Source: Oceanicoccus sagamiensis (GTDB lineage Bacteria > Pseudomonadota > Gammaproteobacteria > Pseudomonadales > Dasaniaceae). From it: a DNA stretch of 64,000 nt. This document shows positions 33,305 through 46,591 of the stretch, one piece after another; within the stretch, counting starts at the first letter, position 1, and each line of letters begins with the position of its first letter. The stretch is from assembly GCF_002117105.1 (NCBI RefSeq), contig NZ_CP019343.1, positions 248,001 through 312,000 of the forward strand, in the 5' to 3' direction. A program made the position numbers and the translations under genes. A model generated the notes under the pieces. It was not told where the DNA came from. It was given only the letters and a program-made list of their open reading frames with translations, and did not search any database.

Positions 33305-36013
33305 ATGAAAAAAATAGTCACCCAAATAGTATTCACCCTATTGCTGCTGAATAGCACTTTTCTAACAGCCGATGACTTAGAGATTTACCAAACTTTAGCG
33401 GAGCAACAGCAGACCAATATTTCAGTCATACTGGCAATTGCCAACCCAAAAAATAGCTCGATAATAAAAACAAGCTTAAAAGATACACTGAATGCACTGC
33501 ACACCAATAAAGCAGCTATAAACATTGCTTTAATGGCATTCAGTAGTGTGAGTGGCAGTTATCTGGTGCATAAACCCATTAATATCAGCGATAGCTACCA
33601 GCTGCAAAGTTTAAACAAGGCTATTGATAAAATACCTGCCACTCAATCTAACGCTAACTTAATCCAGTCTGTCAAAGAGGCCCAGCGCTTTTCCCGTAAT
33701 ACAACCGCCTGCCAGAACAACCTTATTGTTATCATTAGCGACCAAGCCACACAGCCCATCGATAACCGAACCATTCATAACATCGTTTTAAATACTGAAT
33801 CAAGACTGCTAGCAAACCAGCAGCTGACCGCCGTCTTTGACCGTCTTCTTTACCGCACAATAAAAACTCAAGACACTCTCGCTACCCCTGCTATTGCGGT
33901 TGATCGCTATAACCGAATGCAGCATCGTGATGATATCTACTTCGCCCTCTTCCAACCCAAACCATCACCACGCTGGCCCGGCAATATTAAAAAATACAAA
34001 CTAGAGAACACCCATATTGTTGATGCCAATGGCCATCAAGCCCTGCAAAGGGATACCGGGGATTTTAAAGACTCTACCCTTAGCTTCTGGACAGACCCCA
34101 CGGATTGGCCCGATGATGCTATCGATGGTTTAGCGCCAGATGGAAACAATATCAACCATGGTGGCTATGCTTATCAACTACCCACCCCTGATCAACGAAA
34201 AATCTATACCTATCTTGATAATTTTACACCGGACAAACAACGTCTTTCTGCCACAGACGTTAAATCAAGCAATTTATCTATTACCACAACAACTCTGGGG
34301 CTTGCGGAAACAGCAACTCAGCAGCGAAACGATATTCTTAACTGGGTGCGTGGCGCCAGCATAAACAAGCAGCAAAAAACGCCCAACCACTTTGTGGCTG
34401 ATATTATTCACAACCGTCCCGCTGTAGTCACCTATCGTACGCTGGATAAAAATAACTTTGATGACACCGTATTTGCCGGCTCTAACAGAGGATTATTTTA
34501 TGCGATCAAAGCCGACACTGGAGAACCTGTCTTTAGCTTTATCCCACAACAACTGTTACCGAATTTAACTCACTACTATCAAAACCAAGGCACTTTTAAC
34601 GATAAAATCTACGGACTGGACGCCCCTATGACGGTCTGGCGTTATGATAAAAACAATAATGGCAGTATTGTCTCCACTTCAGGCGATAGAGATACTGCTG
34701 AAGTCGGCGAACATATTTATATTTACCAAGCTATGCGCCGGGGCGGTAAAAGTCTTTATGCTTTGGATGTTACCCTGCGCCAAAATCCCAAGTTGCTCTG
34801 GCAAATTAATGGCAATGCCGATCTTAATGGCAATAAACAAAGCGATGCCACCCCCGGCTTTAGCGACCTTGGCCAAACCTGGTCCACCCCCCAACTGGCC
34901 AAAATTCAGTGGAACTGCGCTGCCGATAAGCCCAAAGCCCACTGCGAAGATAAGTCCGTGTTATTTTTTGCCGGTGGCTACGACCCTAAACACGATAACA
35001 GCCCGGACCCGTATATTGACGAAGGCAATGCCCTCTATATGGTGGATGCTAAAACCGGAAAATTATTATGGAGTGCGGGTTATAGCCGCAATAGCCAACA
35101 TAGCCTAAACCTAAAAGCGATGACCCATAGCATCCCTGCGAATATCACCCCCATCGACATTGAAGGAGATGGTTATACCGATTATCTTTTTGCTATCGAT
35201 ATACTCGGCCAGCTATGGCGAATCGACCTTTATAAAACGCCAACCAGCAAAACGCATTTTGCCCATAAAACCCGGGGCGGGATTATCGCCGATCTTGGTG
35301 GTGGCAAGAGTGGTAGTGAGCGCCGATACTATAATGCACCCGATATAGCCCTTGTCTCACCCCGCGGCAGAAAACCTTTCCTTGCCATTGCCTTAGGCAG
35401 CGGCTACCGAGCAGCCCCAAAATCCACCCATATCACTGACCATTTCTATGTCGTGTTTGATCCTTATCCTTACTCTGCTCCGCCAGGCTACAACTATAAC
35501 TACAACGATGACCGAGTAATAAGCACCGCTGATATGGCTGCCGCCACTCTTAAACACGGTAAAAAAGCACCCACTCATACCGAGAAACAATACGGCTGGT
35601 ACTATAGCTTTAGCAACAACAAGGGTGAGAAAGTCCTGGCCCCCTCACTTAGCTTTAACCACCAGATTTTATTAACCACTTATATACCGGCCACCAAGCA
35701 GCAAAGCTGCGCATCGAATAAACACCCTTTAGGCACAGGCCGCTATTACTTATTAAATCTATTAAATGGCCAGTCAACACTCAGCGACAACGGCTCCATC
35801 AAAAACTACCAAACACTAAACCATGGCGGCATACCCCCGGAACCTTTACTGATCTTTCTTCCTAAAAAGGTTTGCCCGTCAAAGAACTGCACAGCCACCA
35901 ATAGCAACCACCAACAGCAGGATAATTTACTGGCCTGTATCGGCACAGAATGTATCGATAACCTGACCGAGCTAACTCTCGACAAAACCTACTGGCGGGA
36001 AAATAATGAGTAA
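33305..36013 (+). CDS. PilY1-like protein with degenerate vWA domain, second cluster
   Basis: The 902-residue protein has a signal peptide (to about LTA|DD), then a short vWA-like region. Where PilY1 has the metal site DTSGSM, this protein reads ISVILAIANPKNSS, so the DxSxS MIDAS is gone, although the later strand LIVIISDQATQP still fits. The C-terminal PilY1 propeller is kept (RMQHRDDIYFALFQPKPSPRWPGNIKKY, LFFAGGYDPKHDN, DIALVSP, YGWYYSF; YDKNNNGS aspartate-rich loop). It overlaps the next gene by 8 bases. The head is about 180 residues shorter than PilY1 at 10963-14202. It probably serves a separate pilus system without metal-dependent ligand binding by the vWA domain. Confidence 0.88.
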   Translation: MKKIVTQIVFTLLLLNSTFLTADDLEIYQTLAEQQQTNISVILAIANPKNSSIIKTSLKDTLNALHTNKAAINIALMAFSSVSGSYLVHKPINISDSYQLQSLNKAIDKIPATQSNANLIQSVKEAQRFSRNTTACQNNLIVIISDQATQPIDNRTIHNIVLNTESRLLANQQLTAVFDRLLYRTIKTQDTLATPAIAVDRYNRMQHRDDIYFALFQPKPSPRWPGNIKKYKLENTHIVDANGHQALQRDTGDFKDSTLSFWTDPTDWPDDAIDGLAPDGNNINHGGYAYQLPTPDQRKIYTYLDNFTPDKQRLSATDVKSSNLSITTTTLGLAETATQQRNDILNWVRGASINKQQKTPNHFVADIIHNRPAVVTYRTLDKNNFDDTVFAGSNRGLFYAIKADTGEPVFSFIPQQLLPNLTHYYQNQGTFNDKIYGLDAPMTVWRYDKNNNGSIVSTSGDRDTAEVGEHIYIYQAMRRGGKSLYALDVTLRQNPKLLWQINGNADLNGNKQSDATPGFSDLGQTWSTPQLAKIQWNCAADKPKAHCEDKSVLFFAGGYDPKHDNSPDPYIDEGNALYMVDAKTGKLLWSAGYSRNSQHSLNLKAMTHSIPANITPIDIEGDGYTDYLFAIDILGQLWRIDLYKTPTSKTHFAHKTRGGIIADLGGGKSGSERRYYNAPDIALVSPRGRKPFLAIALGSGYRAAPKSTHITDHFYVVFDPYPYSAPPGYNYNYNDDRVISTADMAAATLKHGKKAPTHTEKQYGWYYSFSNNKGEKVLAPSLSFNHQILLTTYIPATKQQSCASNKHPLGTGRYYLLNLLNGQSTLSDNGSIKNYQTLNHGGIPPEPLLIFLPKKVCPSKNCTATNSNHQQQDNLLACIGTECIDNLTELTLDKTYWRENNE

Positions 36014-36449
36014 TATATTACAACAGACAAACACCAATACCGGTTTTAGCCTATTAGAAATGATAATGGTATTAGCGATTATCGGCCTACTCACCGCTAT
36101 AGCGATCCCTCGCTACGAAAGTTATATCTTACGCAGTAACCGCATCGGCGAAGGTCTACCAGCCCTTAATCAACTGATGCAGGCTCAAGAGCGCCATGCT
36201 GCTCAATATGGAAGCTATACCGACAAGCTAACTGAACTAGGTTACAGCGCTGAGCCAATCACACCGGGAGGTCACTACAAACTTAAAGCGGTAGCTTGTG
36301 ATAACACCGCCATCACTCACTGCATTGCTGTCCAGGCTCTGGCACAAGGCCAGCAAAGTAAAGATACTAACGGCGTAGATATTGATAACAACGGAGAGCC
36401 CGGTGACCTTAGCTATAACAGCCGTGGAGAAAAATCAGGAATCCATTAG
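36006..36449 (+). CDS. PilE-type minor pilin, second cluster
   Basis: The 147-residue protein has the prepilin site NTG|FSLLEMIMVLAIIGLLTAIAIPRY with Glu at +5 and a pilin body ending DLSYNSRGEKSG. Two cysteines (VACDNTAITHC) could form a disulfide. It is translationally overlapped with the PilY1-like gene and closes the operon. A terminator is not obvious in the 200 bases that follow. Confidence 0.87.
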   Translation: MSNILQQTNTNTGFSLLEMIMVLAIIGLLTAIAIPRYESYILRSNRIGEGLPALNQLMQAQERHAAQYGSYTDKLTELGYSAEPITPGGHYKLKAVACDNTAITHCIAVQALAQGQQSKDTNGVDIDNNGEPGDLSYNSRGEKSGIH

Positions 36450-36654
36450 GCAAGCAAACCAGCTACAAGGCCGAGACCTATCAACAGCCCCGGCTAACCC
36501 TCGCTGCAATAGAAATGCCTGCATTGAGCAGGTGTCTTAATAGCGTAATCTCAGCAGACAATGTACCGGAGTACTTAAATGGCACCTGAGAGCGGGCAGT
36601 ACCCACCCCAATGTAATCATCAATAATAATGCCGTAACCATGTGTGGTAAGGTT

Positions 36655-36954
36655 TCACAGAGCTAGCGGAGTAAATTGAATCGTTACGGTATAGCCAAGC
36701 GCTGCGGCGTAGCTTTCTATGGTAGACAGACGTGGGGAAATTTCAGAGTGCAAGCTTTCCAGGCGCGAGATATTACTTTTTCGGGTGCCCATTAGCTCTG
36801 CCATTTCGGCCTGGGTCACCCCCGCTTGCTTGCGCAAGGCGATCATTTCGCGCTTCATAGCAAAAAGTGGAGCCAAAGCATCGTATTCCGCTTTTACAGC
36901 GGGATTGCTTAGGGCTTTGGTTTTAAACTCGGTTAATGTGGTTCGTTTCGTCAT
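36655..36954 (-). CDS. XRE-type antitoxin (HigA-like)
   Basis: The 99-residue protein has an N-terminal region and a helix-turn-helix QAGVTQAEMAELMGTRKSNISRLES (about residues 43-67), then SPRLSTIESYAAALGY as in HigA-like antitoxins. It follows the toxin gene with a 32-base overlap and on the same strand. The pair is the toxin-first order known for HigBA. It is likely to repress its own promoter through the palindrome at 37285-37306. Confidence 0.85.
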   Translation of the reverse strand: MTKRTTLTEFKTKALSNPAVKAEYDALAPLFAMKREMIALRKQAGVTQAEMAELMGTRKSNISRLESLHSEISPRLSTIESYAAALGYTVTIQFTPLAL

Positions 36955-37276
36955 TGTTTTGTACCGTGGTTTTTCGTTGCTTGGCCAGCGTTATCCTTCG
37001 CGCTGGCAGGCTACGGGTTTTCTTAATCGCTGTGAGTAGAATAATGACTTCTCTTCCTCTGGCGATACAGAATATGGAGCGCGCAATACCTTCCAAACCT
37101 TTGGCTCTAATCTCATAGAGACCATCACCAAGGGGGGCGGTATGGGGCCTGCCAAGATCAGGGCCAAACTCCTCTATAAGCTCGGCGATACGGATAAAAC
37201 CAGCCAGTACACCCGTTGGCAATGCGAGCGTCTCCCGCTCAACCTTTGTATTGTAAAAAGTAACAGTCCATGTCAT
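36923..37276 (-). CDS. HigB/RelE-superfamily toxin (Gp49-like)
   Basis: The 117-residue protein fits the phage-derived Gp49/HigB (DUF891) family: LIEEFGPDLGRPHTAPLGDGLYEIRAKGLEGIARSIFCIARGREVIILLTAIKKTRSLPAR carries the family core. Such toxins are ribosome-dependent mRNA endonucleases. I chose the ATG at 37276 (MTWTVTFYN); the frame stays open to 37315 over the palindrome, which is unlikely to be coding. The C-terminal end runs into the antitoxin start. Confidence 0.85.
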   Translation of the reverse strand: MTWTVTFYNTKVERETLALPTGVLAGFIRIAELIEEFGPDLGRPHTAPLGDGLYEIRAKGLEGIARSIFCIARGREVIILLTAIKKTRSLPARRITLAKQRKTTVQNNDETNHINRV

Positions 37277-37284
37277 AGATGAGA

Positions 37285-37306
37285 GGGTTATCTTTAATGA
37301 TAACCC
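37285..37306. promoter_or_regulatory. Palindrome upstream of the toxin-antitoxin pair
   Basis: A perfect inverted repeat, GGGTTATC-TTTAAT-GATAACCC, lies 8 bases before the toxin ATG (37276) on the operon's upstream side. Its position suits an operator for autorepression by the XRE antitoxin; it could also fold as RNA. Confidence 0.5.
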
Positions 37307-37356
37307 CCTCGTCAATCTTGAAATGATTAGAAATGGTGATGGATTAAATAGTTAGA

Positions 37357-38436
37357 CTATTTATAAATACGAGGGGCTCTTAGGGGCATACGGGTCAGAA
37401 TTTCATAACCGATGGTGCCAGCCCATTGGGCAATCTCATTAGCGGTCAATTCGGGGCCCCAGAGAATCACTTCATCACCAATAGCCACAGAGTCTAAATC
37501 AGTGACATCGACGGTGATCATATCCATAGAGACATTGCCCACCAATTTAACCCGCTGACCATTAACAATAACCGGGGTACCGTTTGGTGCACTACGGGGG
37601 TAGCCATCACCATAACCTACCGCAATGGTAGCAATGGTTGAGGGGCGCTCGGCGGTCCAGTTGGCGGCATAGCCAACGGACTCACCCGCCGCAACTTCCC
37701 GCACTGAGATCACAGCGGATTTTAAGGTCATGACCTGTTGCAGTTGATCGGCATTTTCCTGAGGAATGTTAAAGGGGGAATTGCCATAGAGCATATAGCC
37801 CGGACGATTCCACGCTGTTCTGGCCTTGGGCCAAGCCAGTACCCCAGATGAATTGCCAATACTTAAAGGCGCATCGATATCTTTAACCGCGGCCATAAAA
37901 CAGGCAATCTGGGTATCGGTAAAATCGCTGCCCAAGTCATCACCACAGGCAAGATGCGTCGCTAAAATAATATCATTATCGACATTGGGGCTGGCTTGCA
38001 GCTGCTGATAAAACTCAGTGACCTGTTCAGGGTTTATACCCAGTCGATGCATACCGGTATCCAGCTTTAACCAAACTTTGATGGGCTGCGTTAACTCAGC
38101 ATTGAGCAGGCTATGCAACTGCTGTTGGTTTTCCAGCATTATCCAGTAATTATTGGCTGAGGCTTGTTCGATTTCATCGGCGGTAAATACACCTTCCAAT
38201 AACAGTATCGGCTTATGGATACCGGCCTGACGCAATTCATCCGCCTCTTCAATACAGGCCACTCCTAACGCTGGCGCCAAAGGCTCCAGAGCTTTGGCCA
38301 CAGGGACGGCACCATGACCATAAGCATTGGCTTTGACTACCGCAACACACTGCCCTTCGGGCACCAATCGCTGGGCAAACTGAAAGTTATGCTTTAGGGC
38401 AGCAAGGTCAATAAAAGCGGTGGTGGGTCTGGCCAT
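37357..38436 (-). CDS. alr: Alanine racemase
   Basis: Alr interconverts L- and D-alanine with PLP. The lysine that binds PLP is in VVKANAYGHG (about residue 34), and the second catalytic Tyr lies in ...VGYAANW (GESVGYAANWTAERPS). I chose the ATG at 38436 (MARPTTAFIDLAAL) with AAGG about 9 bases upstream, giving 359 residues; the frame runs on to 38544 inside the dat gene. It follows the D-amino-acid aminotransferase gene by 13 bases. It could also be named dadX; no dadA is next to it. Confidence 0.93.
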   Translation of the reverse strand: MARPTTAFIDLAALKHNFQFAQRLVPEGQCVAVVKANAYGHGAVPVAKALEPLAPALGVACIEEADELRQAGIHKPILLLEGVFTADEIEQASANNYWIMLENQQQLHSLLNAELTQPIKVWLKLDTGMHRLGINPEQVTEFYQQLQASPNVDNDIILATHLACGDDLGSDFTDTQIACFMAAVKDIDAPLSIGNSSGVLAWPKARTAWNRPGYMLYGNSPFNIPQENADQLQQVMTLKSAVISVREVAAGESVGYAANWTAERPSTIATIAVGYGDGYPRSAPNGTPVIVNGQRVKLVGNVSMDMITVDVTDLDSVAIGDEVILWGPELTANEIAQWAGTIGYEILTRMPLRAPRIYK

Positions 38437-38449
38437 GGCTAGTGCTGCC

Positions 38450-39307
38450 TTAGTAGTTGTATTTATTGGCGGTAAACAGGCTTTGGGCTTTTTCCCAAAC
38501 CTCACCGACACTGCCATCGCCAACGGGCTGGCCATCCACTTCAATTACCGGCGCTACTTCTTTGCTGGAGCTACTAATCCAGACCTCATCAGCAGTACGC
38601 AATTCATCCATGGTAACCACCCGCTCTTCGACGGGAATGGAGCCATCTTTACGTAAAATATCCAGCAGGATTAAGCGGGTAATTCCCGGCAAGATCTGCT
38701 CATCCAAAGGAGAGGTAATCACTTTACCGTCTTTGACGATATAGGCATTAACTGCGCTGCCTTCTGTCATTTCACCGCGCTCATTATAGAGAATGGTTTC
38801 GCCATTGCCTTCGCTATGGCCATGCTGATAGTGCATCACATTGCCTAGCAGTGCCGTAGATTTTATATTGCAGCGTTTCCAGCGTAAGTCTTGTGTGGTA
38901 GACACTTTATAGGGCTTAACCTGGTTTCTATTCGCTATGGGTTCTGGCGGGATTTCAAAAGAAAAAGCAAAGACGGTGGCCGGTACATTGTCCGGGTAGG
39001 CGTGATTGCGTTTGGAGTCGGCGCCGCGACTAACATGAAAGTAGATACCCAAATTACCGGCACCATTTTTTTCACTAAGCTGGGTAGCAATATCGCGCCA
39101 CTGGTCATGGCTGTAATCAAATTTAATATCGATAGCACTTAAGCCATCATTCATTCTATCGATATGCGGACCAAAGCCCACCAACTTGCCATTATAGGAA
39201 GGAATCACTTCATAGATGCCATCACCAAATAAAAAACCTCTATCCATAGGAGAAATTTTGGCCTCTTCCATTGGCAGGTATTCACCATTTAAATAAACAA
39301 TACTCAT
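38450..39307 (-). CDS. dat: D-amino-acid (D-alanine) aminotransferase
   Basis: The 285-residue protein is a fold-type IV PLP enzyme. The start MSIVYLNGEYLPMEEAKISPMDRGFLFGDGIYEVI and the region KRCNIKSTALLGNV, with the PLP lysine (about residue 146), match D-alanine aminotransferase, as does SSSKEVAPVIEVDG near the C terminus. The reaction is D-alanine + 2-oxoglutarate to pyruvate + D-glutamate. It lies between the D-glutamate cyclase-like gene and alr. A branched-chain aminotransferase is less likely because the sequence lacks the longer N-terminal part of that family. Confidence 0.85.
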   Translation of the reverse strand: MSIVYLNGEYLPMEEAKISPMDRGFLFGDGIYEVIPSYNGKLVGFGPHIDRMNDGLSAIDIKFDYSHDQWRDIATQLSEKNGAGNLGIYFHVSRGADSKRNHAYPDNVPATVFAFSFEIPPEPIANRNQVKPYKVSTTQDLRWKRCNIKSTALLGNVMHYQHGHSEGNGETILYNERGEMTEGSAVNAYIVKDGKVITSPLDEQILPGITRLILLDILRKDGSIPVEERVVTMDELRTADEVWISSSSKEVAPVIEVDGQPVGDGSVGEVWEKAQSLFTANKYNY

Positions 39308-39335
39308 AACGTCGACCTATAAAAAAATAAAAAAT

Positions 39336-40190
39336 TTACTGAAAACCCACCAACTGACGCAAACTGGCAATTAGCTTTTCACCTTCCGCCAAAGGCAAGC
39401 TATCTTCCGTCAATGTGGGTTCCCGGGTTACACCGTCAAGGCTTCCGCGCGCGGCGATATAGCTTAAAATTTGTTGAGGGTTTATCCGTGCTAATAAATC
39501 TTCCTGCTGCCAGTGGGCTAATAAGGCAATTAATCCATGGGCTGCCCAGTTGGATACATCGGCTATTACCAGTTCATCACAGGTAGTTACTGATGGGGTT
39601 ATATCCAATGCTGAAATCGCCTGATGGATATTACCCATCCCCACTTCATTACCGCCATCACCGATGGCAATGGTTGGGCAATTGGCATACTGCAAGAAGT
39701 AATCAAAGCTGGCACAGCGCTCACTAATATCTTCACCGCGCATATTGCAGTAGATACCCTGCGCTGAAAGCCCTGCCCGTTCAATCGATAAAACCAGTTC
39801 AGGCTGTAATAATTCTAACGCGGCTTTAGCTTCCTGTTCGGCATTGGCCAAATCGCCTACAGTAATTTCATGGACACGAAAATCCCCCGCAATGGCGGTG
39901 GACATCGGTGCCCCGCAGACAATTATTGGCTTGGCACCTAAATACTCCAGCGTTTGGTATAAAGCAATCGCCCCTACCGGCCCATCGGTTTCAAAGCTAT
40001 CCAGTACGGGAAAGCCGGTGCCGATTAATACAGTGCCTTTGCAGGCCAATAACAATTTGGCCGCCCGCAGATAGTAACCAGGGATTAAAGCCGACTGTAC
40101 ATCTTTCATGCCCCGTAAATTTCTTGCCACCAGTAAGTCCTCAATGGATTGACTGAGGGCCAGGTCTCTTTTCTCGGCGGTGTTAGTCAT
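39336..40190 (-). CDS. DUF4392 / D-glutamate cyclase-like (C-terminal half type)
   Basis: The 284-residue protein matches the DUF4392 domain, which is the C-terminal half of the vertebrate D-glutamate cyclase DGLUCY. Motifs that I see include GTGFPVLDSFETDGPVGAIAL (about residues 57-77), IERAGLSAQGIYCNMRGEDIS and AIGDGGNEVGMGN. DGLUCY turns D-glutamate into 5-oxo-D-proline. The gene lies between pxpC and dat. Whether DUF4392 alone is active, or needs the DUF1445 protein at 42795, is unknown. Confidence 0.8.
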   Translation of the reverse strand: MTNTAEKRDLALSQSIEDLLVARNLRGMKDVQSALIPGYYLRAAKLLLACKGTVLIGTGFPVLDSFETDGPVGAIALYQTLEYLGAKPIIVCGAPMSTAIAGDFRVHEITVGDLANAEQEAKAALELLQPELVLSIERAGLSAQGIYCNMRGEDISERCASFDYFLQYANCPTIAIGDGGNEVGMGNIHQAISALDITPSVTTCDELVIADVSNWAAHGLIALLAHWQQEDLLARINPQQILSYIAARGSLDGVTREPTLTEDSLPLAEGEKLIASLRQLVGFQ

Positions 40191-40201
40191 TGGCGCTACA
40201 C

Positions 40202-41164
40202 CTAACAGGTCTGTAGTTGTGCTTGCTGCAACCGTGCTTCAGCAAAATGTAAAAGGTTATGGGCCCGCTCCATAGAGACCGCTTCAAAAGCAACTTTGCC
40301 ACCGGGTAATAGTTGTGCCAGCCGTGCAGTATCGGTTGAAATCATCGAACCGATTTTGGGATAACCGCCGATGGTTTGGCGGTCGTTAATTAATACAATC
40401 GGTTGGCCATCGGCAGGAATTTGGATGGCTCCGTGGCAAATACCTTCCGATAAAATACCGTTAATTGATGAATTGATTTCCTGGCCGGTTAAACGATAAC
40501 CCATACGGTCACAGCGGTCGGACACAGTATATTCGCTGCTAAAAAACAGGTTTTTTTGTACATCACTAAAGGTTTGTTGCTGGTAGCCCAATATCACTCT
40601 GGCAGTTATTGACGTGCTATAAACCGGCTGGTCTTTTTTATCCAGACAATAGTGATGAGAAGCGCTGGCACTGTGACAGGGCAAAAGATCACCCTGCTGA
40701 ACACGTTCACCGTCCAGGCCACCTATTGCTTCACGGGTAACGGTAGCTGCACTGCCAAAGCTATGGGCAATATCAAAACCACCGGCTACAGCCAAATAAC
40801 TGCGACAGCCGTTTTGCGCATAACCCAACTCAATGTGATCACCGGCTTTAATCGTGTGGCTACGCCATAATGGGCAGTTATTACCGTTGATGGTTAGCGC
40901 CATATCTGCACCGGTAACTGCAATCACGGTATCAACCTCAGATTCCAAAACCAAACCACCGACACTGATTTCCAGAGCGATATTATTGGCCGTCTGTTTA
41001 GCTGCGCTTTCGCATAAGCGATTAGCCCAGTAAAAAGCTTGCGGGTCTAAGGGGCCGCCATTGGTTAAACCAATGCCGTGATACCCAAAACGGCCGCTAT
41101 CCTGAATCAGGCTTAATACGCCGGGGCTAATTACTTTAAAACCTGTGCTGGCAGCAGTGCTCAT
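40202..41164 (-). CDS. pxpC: 5-oxoprolinase subunit C (biotin-dependent carboxylase-like, KipA type)
   Basis: The 320-residue protein has the KipA/PxpC signature: GVLSLIQDSGRFGYHGIGLTNGGPLD (about residues 14-39), GSAATVTREAIGG and ILVNDRQTIGGYPKIG. PxpABC hydrolyse 5-oxoproline to glutamate with ATP. The start overlaps the pxpB end by 29 bases, so the genes are coupled. Confidence 0.92.
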   Translation of the reverse strand: MSTAASTGFKVISPGVLSLIQDSGRFGYHGIGLTNGGPLDPQAFYWANRLCESAAKQTANNIALEISVGGLVLESEVDTVIAVTGADMALTINGNNCPLWRSHTIKAGDHIELGYAQNGCRSYLAVAGGFDIAHSFGSAATVTREAIGGLDGERVQQGDLLPCHSASASHHYCLDKKDQPVYSTSITARVILGYQQQTFSDVQKNLFFSSEYTVSDRCDRMGYRLTGQEINSSINGILSEGICHGAIQIPADGQPIVLINDRQTIGGYPKIGSMISTDTARLAQLLPGGKVAFEAVSMERAHNLLHFAEARLQQAQLQTC

Positions 41165-41855
41165 GGTAACGCCCCCCCAAGGTCAAAAACTGATCGCGGT
41201 TAATCGCCTCAAATCGAACCCGGTCACCCACGGCAACCGGCATAGTCGGCTGCGCTTTGGGATCAAACATACGCTGTGGGCAAAGGCCAATCAGGTTCCA
41301 ACCACCGGGTGATTCCGCGGGGTAAACAGCGGTTTGTTGATCCGCGATACCGACAGCACCACGGGGGACTTTTTGCCGCGGTGTGGATAAACGCGGTGAA
41401 GCAATTTGTTGATCCACTTCACCCAAATAAGCAAAGCCCGGTGCAAAGCCAATTGCATAAACCCGGTATTCCTGTTGCTGGTGCAAATCAATGACTTGCT
41501 CGATAGACAGCTCGGCCCGCTCAGCAATAGACTCCAATTCCGGGCCCGATTCCAGACTGTAATAAACGGGCAAAGTAATCAGACTGCCCTCCCCGCTTTC
41601 CGCATTGACCGTATCGGCCAGCAAATCTTTGATTGCCGCCAGCATATGAAAATGATCAGTTTTTAAGGCGTTATAAATAACGGTTAATGAGGCGTAGGAT
41701 GGAATTAAATCAATCAATACCGGTTGTAGGGCTCCGGCAATGGCCGCCGTTGCCGCCTGCACACGGGCAGCTATATCCGGCGAGGCACTGCCGGAATAAA
41801 GCTCGTCGCCGAAATAGATAATCAGCGCATTTTCACCCGCGAGTTCTATTTTCAT
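41136..41855 (-). CDS. pxpB: 5-oxoprolinase subunit B (KipI type)
   Basis: The 239-residue protein has the KipI/PxpB pattern: YAIGFAPGFAYLGEVD (about residues 130-145), PRLSTPRQKVPRGAVGIADQQTAVYP and ESPGGWNLIG. In bacteria PxpB and PxpC form the second part of the ATP-dependent 5-oxoprolinase. Its start overlaps the stop of pxpA by 4 bases. It has no sign of the kinase inhibitor role given to Bacillus KipI. Confidence 0.92.
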   Translation of the reverse strand: MKIELAGENALIIYFGDELYSGSASPDIAARVQAATAAIAGALQPVLIDLIPSYASLTVIYNALKTDHFHMLAAIKDLLADTVNAESGEGSLITLPVYYSLESGPELESIAERAELSIEQVIDLHQQQEYRVYAIGFAPGFAYLGEVDQQIASPRLSTPRQKVPRGAVGIADQQTAVYPAESPGGWNLIGLCPQRMFDPKAQPTMPVAVGDRVRFEAINRDQFLTLGGRYHEHCCQHRF

Positions 41856-42586
41856 CCGCCAATTAACTCTCGAATGTCTTGAATGGCTAATACACCGGCT
41901 TCATTATCACCATGGACACATAGAGTATCGACCTGCAGGGATAAGGTATTGCCCCCGACGGTCGTGATTGTCCCTTCATCACAGAGTTGCTTAACCTGGG
42001 CTAACATTTTTTCTTTGTTGTGCACAGCGCCCTCTTTAGAGCGAGCCAGTAATTTGCCATCGTCGTCATAACAGCGGTCGGCAAAGGCTTCAAACCAAAG
42101 GCTAAGGCCAAGGCGGTCAGCTTCGGCCTTATGCTCGTTATAATCCGGGGTGGCTTGTAACATAAGCGTTAACGGGCGGTGATATTCCGACATAGCCACC
42201 AGTATGGCATTGCGCACATCGGGCTTGGCCATCATATCGTTATAGAGTGCGCCGTGGGGTTTTACATATTCCAGTTTTAGGCCGGCGGTGGCAGCCATTC
42301 CGTCCATAGCTGCGATCTGATAATGCATTAATGCAACAATTTCATCAAAGCTGCAATTCATCGAGCGACGGCCAAAGCCAACCAGATCCTGATAGGCAGG
42401 GTGAGCACCAATGGTGACATTATGTTGTTTGGCCATTTGCAAGGTATTGCGCATTACCACCGGATCACTGGCGTGAAAACCACAGGCAATATTGGCCTGG
42501 TCAATATAGGGCATTACAGCGGCGTCCATTCCCATGGTCCAGCTGCCAAAGCTTTCGCCCAAGTCGCAATTTAATCGTAAAGCCAT
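41852..42586 (-). CDS. pxpA: 5-oxoprolinase subunit A (LamB/YcsF family)
   Basis: The 244-residue protein has the LamB/YcsF start LNCDLGESFGSWTMG, followed by IDQANIACGFHASDP, GAHPAYQDLVGFGRR and VKPHGALYN. The name of this old family is misleading; it is the PxpA part of the prokaryotic 5-oxoprolinase. It starts the pxpA-pxpB-pxpC unit and lies 208 bases after the hydro-lyase gene. Confidence 0.93.
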   Translation of the reverse strand: MALRLNCDLGESFGSWTMGMDAAVMPYIDQANIACGFHASDPVVMRNTLQMAKQHNVTIGAHPAYQDLVGFGRRSMNCSFDEIVALMHYQIAAMDGMAATAGLKLEYVKPHGALYNDMMAKPDVRNAILVAMSEYHRPLTLMLQATPDYNEHKAEADRLGLSLWFEAFADRCYDDDGKLLARSKEGAVHNKEKMLAQVKQLCDEGTITTVGGNTLSLQVDTLCVHGDNEAGVLAIQDIRELIGG

Positions 42587-42794
42587 AGCGAAGATTCCCG
42601 TAAAAACAATTCAATGGTGGATACAGAATAGTAGTTCTGAACCGCACTATTGACGACTATTTTAGAGAATTGCAGGAAAATTTTTTGCCATAATTCGGCA
42701 TTTTACAGGATATTATCCTTTGAAAGTGGCAGATACCGCTAGAATACCACCAGATTACCCACGTTAGGCAAAATTAATACCTATAACGCAATCA

Positions 42795-43583
42795 CTATAA
42801 AATGGACAGCTTGCTATTGGGGATATCCGTCACCAGCATACAGCCGGGTTCATGGGTAATACACAATGGCGGTTTGGCTTCTTCCAGTACCGCCTGAGGT
42901 GTCACGCCGCAGGCCCAGAATACAGGCATTTCATTGGGCTTGATGGTAACGGCATCGCCATAGTCAGGTTGGTTGATATTGTTAATACCAATCAGTGAAG
43001 GGTCGCCCAAATGAATCGGCGCACCATGCACCGAGGGGAAGCGACTGCAAATTTGTATCGCGCGTATCGCATCTGCCGCTAAAAAGGGACGCATACTCAC
43101 TACGGTTTTACCGCTAAATCGACCGGCGGGACGACAGTCGATATTGGTGCGATACATCGGGACATTGAGATTTTGGCTAACATTGCGTACATCCAGACCA
43201 TCGGCAATCAGTGGTTCTTCAAAGGAGAACGAGCAGCCCAGTAAAAAGCTGACCAGATCATCGCGCCAGTAGTCTTTGATATCAGTCACAGAGTGTTTAT
43301 GTTCGCCGTTTTCAAAAATACGGTAGCCAGAAATATCAGAACGGATATCCAGATCTTCACCCAAGTCTGGCAACATATAATCACCTGGCTGGGATGCCAT
43401 ACCCACTATGGGGCAAGGCTTGGGATTGAGCTGACAAAATTGTAGAAATTCATTAGCCCAGTCTTTGGGCAGGATCACCAGGTTACATTGTACAAAACCT
43501 GCGGCATAGCCAGAGGTATTCGTGGTATGTTCGCCGCTGCGGATACGTTGACGTAGGGTTAGTGGTGATATGTCTGCTGTCAT
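42795..43583 (-). CDS. DUF1445 hydro-lyase (D-glutamate cyclase family)
   Basis: The 262-residue protein (from the ATG at 43583) has the DUF1445 signature: [20 protein letters not shown] (about residues 27-46), [26 protein letters not shown] and WACGVTPQ...[17 protein letters not shown]. UniProt puts this family with the D-glutamate cyclases because DGLUCY has this domain in its N-terminal half; in bacteria the function is otherwise known only as 'putative hydro-lyase'. AAGAGAAA upstream is a weak ribosome site. Next to it are the pxp genes, so a role in 5-oxoproline or D-glutamate turnover is plausible. Confidence 0.82.
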
Positions 43584-43654
43584 AGTTTTCTCTTCGATGT
43601 CATTCCTGTGTAGGTGGGAATCCAGTTTGAGTGCCGTTATATTCAAGACAGCCC

Positions 43655-43723
43655 GTAGGGTGGATTATAATCCACCGCTTAGACGGCACCTGGCTGGGCT
43701 TGGTGGATTATAATCCACCCTAC
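43655..43723. repeat. REP-like paired palindrome, copy 2
   Basis: Arms at 43655-43676 and 43702-43723 both contain the perfect palindrome GGTGGATTATAATCCACC, with GTAGG- and -CCTAC outside. The spacer is 25 bases. It lies between the DUF1445 start and the fumarase stop. Confidence 0.9.
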
Positions 43724-43827
43724 GATGTCCGAGGAGTATTGTTAAAACGCCAACGCTGCAATACGCTGGCCCTGTTTAAGGCATTTGCCCTGGACAATAA
43801 TTCGCCTTCGCAAAAATGACGAGTGGC

Positions 43828-45345
43828 TTAAGTAACCTTAATCGCTTGCTCTTCAATTTTAGCGGACCATATTTGCGGACCGGTTTTATGTACCGACTCA
43901 CCCGTATGATCGACCGCAACCGTTACCGGCATATCTTCCAATTCAAATTCATAGATCGCTTCCATACCCAATTCAGGGAAGCCAACCACCTTGGAAGATT
44001 TAATCGCCTGAGCCACTAGATAAGCAGCACCACCCACAGCCATAAGATAAACTGACTGGTGATCTTTAATCGCGTCAATCGCAGTAGGTCCCCGCTCAGC
44101 TTTACCAATCATACCCAACAGCCCGGTTTTTTCTAACATGGTGCGGGTAAATTTATCCATACGGGTTGCAGTCGTTGGGCCAGCAGGACCAACCACTTCA
44201 TCACCAATGGGATCAACAGGCCCTACGTAATAGATAAAACGACCTTCCATAGAAACCGGCAGTTCTTCACCGGCTTCAATCATATCAACCATTTTCTTAT
44301 GGGCCGCATCGCGACCGGTTAGCATTTTACCGTTTAATAATAAGGTATCACCGGGCTGCCAGGTTTTAACTTCTTCGGCGGTGACTGTATCCAGATTAAC
44401 ACGCTTAACGTTATCACCGGCTTCACGGGTCACTTCCGGCCAGTCTTCCAGTTTGGGCGCTTTTAATGAAGCGGTACCGGAACCATCCAGGGTAAAGTGT
44501 GTGTGGCGAGTAGCGGCACAGTTAGGAATAATCGCAATCGCTTTATTGGCGGCATGGGTTGGATAGTCTTTGACTTTAACGTCCATTACTGTGGTTAAAC
44601 CACCCAGGCCCTGGGCACCAATACCCAGCTTGTTAATTTTTTCGTGTAACTCAAGGCGCAGCTCTTCTGAACGAGTGCTGGCACCGCGTTCTTGCAAGTC
44701 CTGAATATCGATCGGCTCCAGCAAGGCTTCTTTTGCCAGTAACATCGCTTTTTCAGCAGTGCCACCAATACCTATACCCAACATGCCCGGTGGACACCAA
44801 CCGGCCCCCATTTGCGGCACCATATTTAATACCCAATCCACAACAGAATCTGAAGGGTTCAGCATGGCAAATTTGGACTTGGCTTCACTACCGCCGCCCT
44901 TGGCAGCCACATGAACTTCGACGGTATCGCCGGGGACAATTTCATAGTGAATCACACCGGGAGTATTGTCTTTGGTATTGGCTCGGGCGCCATCAGGGTC
45001 CGCCAGGATGGAAGCGCGTAGTACATTGTCCGGGTTCATATAGGCGCGACGAATACCTTCGTTACACATATCGGTCACTGACATATCCGCTTCCCATTGC
45101 ACATTCATACCGACTTTTAAAAATACGGTCACAATACCGGTATCCTGACAAATAGGTCGATGCCCCTCGGCACACATCCGGGAGTTAATCAGGATCTGAG
45201 CCAGTGCATCTTTAGCTGCCGGGTTCTGCTCTCGCTGGTAGGCTTTATCCATGGCCTGGATAAAATCAACCGGGTGGTAATAGGAAATGTATTGCAGCGC
45301 ATCGGCTACGCTTTCGATCAAATCTTCTTGACGGATAACAGTCAT
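43828..45345 (-). CDS. fumA: Fumarate hydratase, class I
   Basis: The 505-residue protein is a class I [4Fe-4S] fumarase, with an N-terminal alpha domain and a C-terminal beta domain fused in one chain (ICQDTGIVTVF, GAGWCPPGMLGIGIGGTAEKA, IIPNCAATRHTHF, KMLTGRDAAHKKMVDM and GPAGPTTATRMD). It hydrates fumarate to malate in the TCA cycle. Iron-sulfur class I fumarases are oxygen-sensitive; whether a class II fumC exists lies outside the window. The symbol could also be fumB. Confidence 0.94.
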   Translation of the reverse strand: MTVIRQEDLIESVADALQYISYYHPVDFIQAMDKAYQREQNPAAKDALAQILINSRMCAEGHRPICQDTGIVTVFLKVGMNVQWEADMSVTDMCNEGIRRAYMNPDNVLRASILADPDGARANTKDNTPGVIHYEIVPGDTVEVHVAAKGGGSEAKSKFAMLNPSDSVVDWVLNMVPQMGAGWCPPGMLGIGIGGTAEKAMLLAKEALLEPIDIQDLQERGASTRSEELRLELHEKINKLGIGAQGLGGLTTVMDVKVKDYPTHAANKAIAIIPNCAATRHTHFTLDGSGTASLKAPKLEDWPEVTREAGDNVKRVNLDTVTAEEVKTWQPGDTLLLNGKMLTGRDAAHKKMVDMIEAGEELPVSMEGRFIYYVGPVDPIGDEVVGPAGPTTATRMDKFTRTMLEKTGLLGMIGKAERGPTAIDAIKDHQSVYLMAVGGAAYLVAQAIKSSKVVGFPELGMEAIYEFELEDMPVTVAVDHTGESVHKTGPQIWSAKIEEQAIKVT

Positions 45346-45465
45346 CAGAGACGAACCTCTCGTTCAAAATAGGGTCAGTGAGTAAAATCAGGGGCGCTAT
45401 TATACACAAACGCGGTGGTTTTTGACCGCCTTCTAACAGACGGTCACAGGGGGAGAATTAGAGCG

Positions 45466-46257
45466 CTATTGTGGGGCTGGCTGGCTGCTACCCTGCTTTA
45501 AGGCAGTTAAATCGCGGTTTACCTGGCGTCGGAAGCCATTAATAGACTCAACCCATTCCTCAGTCCCCTTAACCCGGCGGTCCAATTTACCCAAATCAGC
45601 ACTGACCCGGTTGGTCTTGTCGGCCATATTTTCCAGAGATTTCTCTTGCTGGCCAAGCACCAACTGGTTTTCAGCAACCTGTGAGTGCAGTTGCTGGGTT
45701 TTTTGTAGCTGCTGGCTTAAGCCCGCCACCACATCATCACGCTTGGTCATTTGCTGCTTGGCGGAGGCGATAAACGCATCGCTGGCCGCGATACTTTCGG
45801 TGTGCAGTTTCAGTAAGGCGTCATTTTCAGCAAACTTTTGCTTACTTTTCTTCCAGACATTGTCCCAAAGCTTACGCACCTCGGAATCCAACTCACGTAA
45901 CTTAACCTTCATCGCCGCGCTGGACTCCCCCATGCTTTCATCGGTAACCATTAAGCGCCGCTCCAGATCACCAATACGCAACTCATAATTTTGCAGCGAC
46001 TTCTCGGCAATCTGAAGTTTTTGGTGAAGATACCCTGCCCAGGCAGCCGTGGCTAATAACACCAAAACCACCAGAGTCAAAACCGACTTGGTTGCCATTG
46101 AAGCACTGGCACTGCCCGCCGCCCCAACATCCGGTACCTCTCCCAAACTTGCGGCTAGCTGCCCCTTAGCCTGGTTACGCTGAAAAGAGGCAATTTCATC
46201 ATGGGCTGGGGTAATTTTGGGCACATGACCAATATGGTCATCATCTCGTCGGGACAT
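45466..46257 (-). CDS. Hypothetical single-pass membrane protein with coiled coil
   Basis: I do not recognise a named family. The product is about 263 residues from the ATG at 46257 (a GTG at 46269 is also in frame). It has a cytoplasmic Ser/Ala-rich head, one membrane segment (SVLTLVVLVLLATAAWAGYL, about residues 58-77), then a long charged alpha-helical region rich in heptads (to about residue 240), and a C-terminal Q/S/P tail. It lies 120 bases before fumA in the same direction, but there is no sign of a shared function. Confidence 0.7.
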   Translation of the reverse strand: MSRRDDDHIGHVPKITPAHDEIASFQRNQAKGQLAASLGEVPDVGAAGSASASMATKSVLTLVVLVLLATAAWAGYLHQKLQIAEKSLQNYELRIGDLERRLMVTDESMGESSAAMKVKLRELDSEVRKLWDNVWKKSKQKFAENDALLKLHTESIAASDAFIASAKQQMTKRDDVVAGLSQQLQKTQQLHSQVAENQLVLGQQEKSLENMADKTNRVSADLGKLDRRVKGTEEWVESINGFRRQVNRDLTALKQGSSQPAPQ

Positions 46258-46269
46258 AATTGTATTCAC

Positions 46270-46591
46270 ACTTCTTAATCGGATTAAATGTCGAGCAAAG
46301 CCCGCTAAATGCTTAGTTCACACATTAACGGCGGTGGCCGTCATTATCGCATGGCCATATTGGCCAAAACACTAGCAAATTCGCGCACAGCACACAGATT
46401 TCCATTAAACATAGCAAAAAAAAACGCCGATGCGTCTGTTTAACGTGTTTATAGACTCCGAAATACAATTTGGGTTTCCTTTTCGGGATAAATAGCCTAT
46501 ATAATTACATTAAATTCAGTGCCTTAGCTCTTTCGGGATCTTCTGAGCTGAGTCGTTCGAAAAATAAACACATAAGTCTTAGGGGGCTGTT
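46270..46591. other. Divergent promoter region
   Basis: The stretch is 322 bases, separates the membrane protein (minus) from the PuuD-like gene (plus), and contains no gene. AT-rich TATATAATTA at about 46498-46507 could be a -10 region for the plus-strand gene, and an AGCTC/GAGCT stem lies near 46527-46550. Confidence 0.4.

Follow-up and report, generated by a model that had tools for sequence, protein, structure and literature searches.

A candidate D-glutamate supply-and-disposal cluster in Oceanicoccus sagamiensis and related genomes without MurI

How does a Gram-negative bacterium without a recognizable glutamate racemase (MurI) provide the D-glutamate (D-Glu) of its cell wall, and why would the genes that could supply it lie in one run with those of a 5-oxoprolinase? 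Both questions are raised by seven intact minus-strand genes, each with an ATG start, at positions 37357-43583 of a 64,000-nucleotide stretch of the Oceanicoccus sagamiensis genome (contig NZ_CP019343.1, 248,001 to 312,000; hereafter the window). In reading order they encode a DUF1445 protein, the 5-oxoprolinase subunits PxpA, PxpB and PxpC, a DUF4392 protein, a D-amino-acid aminotransferase (Dat) and an alanine racemase (Alr). Gram-negatives are usually described as MurI users, and D-Glu supply as an essential step of wall synthesis, in an excerpt of PMC5885031. The cluster is probably a D-Glu supply-and-disposal unit that replaces MurI, with Alr and Dat as the supply side and the DUF4392 and DUF1445 proteins together with PxpABC draining or repairing D-Glu.

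The seven genes are present and placed as the first-pass annotation had read them, with coordinates, intact frames and Pfam and NCBIfam matches in agreement. All Pfam families (alanine racemase domains, Aminotran_4, GLUCM-like_C, CT_A_B, CT_C_D, LamB_YcsF and D-Glu_cyclase) were matched above their curated cut-offs, and the NCBIfam names agree with the gene assignments, the DUF4392 protein having no NCBIfam match.

Sources of D-glutamate and D-alanine in the host genome

The host genome is a single contig of 4.47 Mb rated 100% complete, and the window contains no masked bases. The MurI model had no match in this genome at E 0.001; 2656 of the 1904828 fetched bases were masked (N), and a murI gene might be hidden in a masked stretch. 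The alanine racemase model matched only the alr of the cluster (37357-38436, 359 aa; TIGR00492, 359.9 bits, cut-off 168) in the whole genome. Dat (38450-39307, 285 aa; PF01063) is the sole close Dat, as a search of the host with this protein returned, besides itself, two proteins with identities of 25% and 24%, which are taken to belong to the branched-chain and aminodeoxychorismate groups of this fold. A single MurD scored above cut-off (428.9 bits) and is encoded among other Mur ligases, the other four matches reaching at most 93.5 bits.

Because no MurI match was found and Alr, Dat and an above-cut-off MurD each occur once, this host most likely draws all of its wall D-Glu and D-alanine (D-Ala) from dat and alr, which would then not be salvage parts; gene content makes it very probable that Dat is the sole source of wall D-Glu. 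The term salvage island, chosen in the first-pass annotation, is therefore probably the wrong emphasis for a genome without a MurI match, another Alr or another Dat, and a salvage-only reading was rejected on these grounds. Also rejected for the host was a MurD2/MurL bypass, given the single MurD above cut-off. A racemising DapF, by analogy with Chlamydia, may be a source of D-Glu.

The best solved relatives of Dat are D-alanine aminotransferases, and residues K149, R100, H102, E182 and Y32 stand opposite the matching residues of the solved enzymes and are invariant in all 12 aligned sequences. These include what we take, from the Bacillus enzyme, to be the catalytic lysine and the arginine and histidine that serve the carboxylate on the D-side. 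On the supply side, Alr would make D-Ala, Dat would transfer its amino group to 2-oxoglutarate to give D-Glu, and the ordinary MurD would incorporate this D-Glu into peptidoglycan. This half of the model is well supported by gene content. In Staphylococcus aureus, a D-Glu requirement appears only in the murI dat double mutant, and Dat alone can supply D-Glu (passages of PMC5458566).

Single copies of alr and dat also bear on a nutritional use of the cluster, in which Dat, the cyclases and PxpABC would channel D-Ala and D-Glu from environmental peptidoglycan into central metabolism. On paper all of the enzymes run that way, and the carriers are for the most part free-living marine lineages, judging by the record titles of the best 80 of at least 594 DUF4392-matching stretches. 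However, sole copies in a MurI-less genome must serve synthesis, no transporter was found in a family scan of 15 neighbour proteins from other loci, and the authors of a D-Glu growth study judged the cyclase and Dat more likely to be anabolic (excerpt of PMC6131576). Nutrition is therefore an improbable main purpose.

Conservation of the cluster and the distribution of MurI and Dat

The cluster was followed through 244 genomes drawn evenly from the larger order of the window, with loci read by our own open reading frame (ORF) script and no gene caller; the DUF4392 ORF of locus L088 was lost thereby, and contig ends truncate several loci. DUF4392 matches occurred in 35 of these genomes, the window's own included, one of which (G104) has a weak fragment only and was excluded from DUF4392 counts. 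A comparative search had been suggested as a check in the first-pass annotation, and the genes do co-occur elsewhere: 24 of the 33 other DUF4392 loci carry all seven in the same order and on the same strand. Taken singly, dat was present in 31 of these loci, pxpA and the DUF1445 gene in 29 each, and alr, pxpB and pxpC in 28 each. The conserved gene order exceeds chance.

A scan of GTDB genomes for DUF4392, from which the best 80 of the at least 594 matching stretches were retained, returned loci from Leucothrix, Thiothrix, Rheinheimera, Colwellia, Alkalimonas and Oceanospirillum, among others. All seven genes lie on one strand in 28 of the 80 loci and the same set minus alr in 26, while dat is present in 70, with genes on both strands in two of these. 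In seven genomes of Leucothrix, Thiothrix and Cocleimonas, dat is outside the run, and each has a more distant Dat (36-38% identity), which in two Cocleimonas is encoded a few kb off on the opposite strand. DUF4392 and dat are separated by a gene of about 300 residues in several genera. The three such genes that were scanned (L046 8418-9314, L075 6889-7782, L117 6955-7899) encode LysR-type regulators, and their position makes them possible dedicated regulators of the cluster.

A related arrangement occurs in G010 and G052, which both lack MurI and belong to a single other genus; G052 is only 75% complete. Here a divergent pxpABC (35-40% identical), a gene with a phosphoribosyltransferase domain, dat and alr form one run (L186 7115-12064 in G010; L187 3-4584 in G052). 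DUF4392 was matched in neither of the two, and the stretch contains no DUF1445 gene. In this run, 5-oxoprolinase may have been brought together with Dat and Alr separately from the cluster of the window.

MurI was counted as present in 179 genomes of the order sample, made up of 174 above cut-off, 4 with partial matches (G092, G113, G187, G228) and G177, and as missing in 12 genomes with weak matches only; Dat was counted at E 1e-40 or better (87 of 244). On these definitions, Dat occurs in 56 of the 65 genomes without MurI versus 31 of the 179 with it, and a strict variant that accepts only MurI above cut-off leaves 70 genomes without MurI, 57 of them with Dat. Likewise, 25 of the 32 genomes with a dat-linked DUF4392 gene lack MurI, versus 40 of the 212 other order genomes. 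In G177, a murI remnant was considered and rejected: the match, 40 residues long, continues into masked sequence (N at 1-2501 of L184), and the GTPase gene next to it is one that lies ahead of murI in G103 as well. The mask thus cuts the murI of G177, and the genome is probably MurI-positive.

These counts are not independent of ancestry, and relatedness renders the Fisher values computed on such counts too small. This worry is reduced because shuffling the MurI labels within six families gave p ~0.002 (for the genomes printed in the tables) and because both states occur inside the window's genus, where the host (G000), G174 and G195 have the cluster and no MurI, and where MurI is present in G127, G152 and G235 but DUF4392 and Dat are both missing. 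G174 and G195 appear near-identical at the cluster locus.

The pattern is also seen in 50 named genomes from the best 80 GTDB loci, a non-random set that was selected for DUF4392, is of unstated completeness, lies mostly outside the window's family and includes several draft metagenome-assembled genomes. MurI was above cut-off in 16 of them, had no match in 12, Rheinheimera sp. D18 among these, and gave weak matches only in 22, which we read as probable other proteins of the racemase family. All 34 genomes under the MurI cut-off carry Dat, and the single Dat-less genome has MurI. Two side observations belong here. A short partial MurI-like match with two internal stops (G291:C67:130523-130759) lies in a Colwellia genome that has the cluster and is perhaps a decayed murI. 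Nine order genomes (G039, G059, G076, G105, G157, G164, G167, G200, G227) are without both MurI and Dat under the thresholds applied, which may reflect either another D-Glu route or assembly gaps.

DUF4392 itself is accompanied by Dat in 33 of 34 order genomes and 49 of 50 GTDB-locus genomes, and a DUF4392 genome lacking both MurI and Dat was found in neither set (0 of 34 and 0 of 50). This bears directly on the idea that the 5-oxoproline arm is itself the source of D-Glu, with L-glutamate (L-Glu) converted to 5-oxo-L-proline, then to 5-oxo-D-proline, and opened by PxpABC to D-Glu. The missing MurI match in the host would agree with such a route, and ATP-driven opening would favour glutamate formation, but DUF4392 never substitutes for MurI and Dat together. 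The route was rejected, and we consider it very improbable indeed. Of the reverse use for making D-Glu that the first pass had offered as an alternative, the making of D-Glu stands as the supported role of Dat, while the backward 5-oxoproline arm finds no support.

The cyclase-like proteins and the 5-oxoproline arm

Two proteins of the cluster could act on D-Glu itself. One is the DUF4392 protein (GLUCM-like_C, D-glutamate cyclase-like; 39336-40190, 284 aa; PF14336, 217.9 bits), the sole copy in the genome. The other is the DUF1445 protein (D-Glu_cyclase, UPF0317; 42795-43583, 262 aa; PF07286, 222.6 bits; NF003969, 408.3 bits, cut-off 324). Passages of PMC5339696 describe a mammalian DUF1445-DUF4392 fusion that converts D-Glu to 5-oxo-D-proline and whose loss raises D-Glu, and the authors of the structure of TON_0340, a single-domain DUF4392 protein, noted the fusion of the two domains (excerpt of PMC5132392). 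The predicted model of the DUF1445 protein resembles its solved relatives 2pif and 3db9 (template modelling score 0.82-0.88), both titled UPF0317 proteins with no function given, and also has a weak partial match to 3nek. For the DUF4392 protein (mean predicted local distance difference test score of the model 74.8), the metal-site acids E67, D69, E137, D178, E182 and D263, paired by reading of the alignment, correspond to six of TON_0340 and are invariant in all five sequences.

Retention of these acids would also suit a metal-dependent phosphatase that acts on a small molecule and whose place beside dat and pxp reflects a different job in wall or nucleotide metabolism. The same excerpt (PMC5132392) reports that TON_0340 has Mn-dependent phosphatase activity, abolished in D157L and E59Q. 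The activity is described there as very low, however, the mammalian knockout and enzyme data point to D-Glu (PMC5339696, in the passages cited above), and DUF4392 tracks Dat. A phosphatase is thus hardly to be expected in this place.

The genes pxpA (41852-42586, 244 aa; NF003816, 345 bits, cut-off 213), pxpB (41136-41855, 239 aa; TIGR00370, 165.7 bits, cut-off 145.55) and pxpC (40202-41164, 320 aa; TIGR00724, 258.6 bits, cut-off 230.2) are all present and adjacent, and PxpA has no other match in the genome. PxpA and PxpB exceed equivalog or subfamily cut-offs; PxpC exceeds that of TIGR00724 only, with 215.6 bits under the cut-off of 500 for the equivalog NF045499. According to an excerpt of PMC13274462, in which the D-form is not mentioned, PxpABC opens 5-oxo-L-proline with ATP.

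In the proposed disposal half, the DUF4392 protein, perhaps with the DUF1445 protein as a partner or for the next step, would close surplus D-Glu to 5-oxoproline, which PxpABC would then open with ATP to glutamate. MurI is reversible and can return surplus D-Glu to L-Glu, thus serving as both entry and exit; a cell with Dat only would have no direct exit to L-Glu. Going by this enzyme chemistry, DUF4392 and PxpABC probably provide a way of draining or repairing D-Glu for which a cell with MurI would have less need. The D-form could reach L-Glu through a racemising step at 5-oxoproline or through a tolerant enzyme. If PxpABC returned only D-Glu, the disposal half would be a repair of D-Glu lost to ring closure instead of drainage, and if it accepted only the L-form, a racemising step would be missing. 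A more far-reaching version, in which Dat makes D-Glu and a detour by way of 5-oxoproline, driven by ATP, would convert any surplus to L-Glu and so act as a one-way D-to-L converter in place of the racemase in MurI-free Gram-negatives, is speculative and rather doubtful. It needs a change of handedness at 5-oxoproline, and hence a new activity of DUF1445, DUF4392 or an unusual PxpABC.

Several observations weigh against a supply-and-disposal unit. Handedness is the weak point of the disposal half: the product of the mammalian fusion stays in the D-form in the passages of PMC5339696, hence no racemising step is shown there, and TON_0340 with its very low phosphatase activity is the only single-domain DUF4392 protein that has been tested, as far as the excerpt of PMC5132392 goes. 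Dat is present with neither MurI nor a dat-linked DUF4392 in 31 order genomes, and the disposal genes are therefore not required for life on Dat; PxpA occurs in 13 of these 31. MurI is retained in six cluster genomes and probably in a seventh. Incomplete clusters also exist: at L056 (G047) and L058 (G003) the run is alr-dat-DUF4392-pxpA and the stretch read contains neither pxpB nor pxpC, and G138 has dat, DUF4392 and DUF1445 without pxp genes in its stretch. Dat, at 248.2 bits, is under the equivalog cut-off of TIGR01121 (277.45), its joint best match with NF005209 among 23 NCBIfam families.

A last adverse count, PxpA in 84 of 172 MurI genomes without the cluster, fits plain repair, in which PxpABC would reopen 5-oxoproline formed spontaneously from glutamate and glutamine, and dat and alr would be co-transcribed housekeeping neighbours. 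PxpABC is indeed known as a repair and catabolic enzyme for 5-oxo-L-proline (excerpt of PMC13274462). Plain repair does not, however, predict that DUF4392 tracks Dat in all but one of the 34 order genomes that carry it, nor does it sit well with the gene order kept in most order loci or with a divergent pxpABC that likewise adjoins dat-alr. We regard it as unlikely, and prefer a D-Glu supply-and-disposal unit.

Transcription, surroundings and relation to known systems

From DUF1445 to alr, the junctions are a gap of 208 bp, overlaps of 4 and 29 bp, and gaps of 11, 28 and 13 bp, which bears out the tight pxpA-to-alr spacing noticed in the first pass. Promoter-like and terminator-like sites in 36900-44000 were not more frequent than in shuffles, so that one transcript can be read from the spacing only, and this spacing suggests that pxpA to alr are transcribed together. 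The 208-bp gap between DUF1445 and pxpA (42587-42794, minus strand) could hold an extra promoter, judging from sequence and spacing; it measures about 200 bp in G174 and G195 and is shorter in most other order loci read. Rfam gave no match within 36000-46500, the gap included. A class I fumarase lies upstream of the cluster (43828-45345). Downstream of alr, a helix-turn-helix protein and a Gp49/RelE-like protein in overlapping frames (36655-37315) are a probable toxin-antitoxin pair.

Each enzyme family, the use of Dat as a D-Glu source and the existence of neighbouring split cyclase relatives are already known. What appears to be new is a gene set that recurs across genomes and joins the two cyclase-like proteins to PxpABC, Dat and Alr, together with the link between this set and the absence of MurI in Gram-negatives; this was not found among the matches listed in searches of open PubMed Central papers. 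The repeated pattern is one of gammaproteobacterial genomes without MurI that carry Dat, packaged with the proteins likeliest to remove D-Glu. For the single-domain DUF4392 and DUF1445 proteins of bacteria, which have no settled role, the cluster offers a concrete setting and candidate substrates, and the question of whether PxpABC accepts the D-form is raised in genomes where the answer matters.

Among known systems, the Dat route of Bacillus and Staphylococcus shares its fold and catalytic residues with the Dat of the window. It differs in that the window Dat is the only visible source of D-Glu, belongs to a Gram-negative and lies in a run with cyclase-like proteins and a 5-oxoprolinase. Compared with the mammalian D-glutamate cyclase (DGLUCY/GLUCM), both domains are found here as separate proteins of one cluster, much as split relatives of the human enzyme lie in neighbouring genes of gut microbes (passages of PMC12547972). 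Cyclase activity is documented for the mammalian fusion in the passages of PMC5339696, whereas for the bacterial proteins it is a predicted activity, and where the mammalian product is 5-oxo-D-proline, the cluster adds a 5-oxoprolinase. The pxpTABC genes of Corynebacterium glutamicum likewise have PxpA, PxpB and PxpC together and adjacent, but in the cluster, where the neighbours are dat, alr and DUF4392 instead, a gene for a PxpT-like transporter was not found. Finally, D-Glu enters the wall without MurI through the MurD2/MurL bypass in Xanthomonas (excerpt of PMC8788868) and through a racemising DapF in Chlamydia (excerpt of PMC5885031). The host shares a MurI-less genome with both, and unlike them it combines one MurD above cut-off with Dat.

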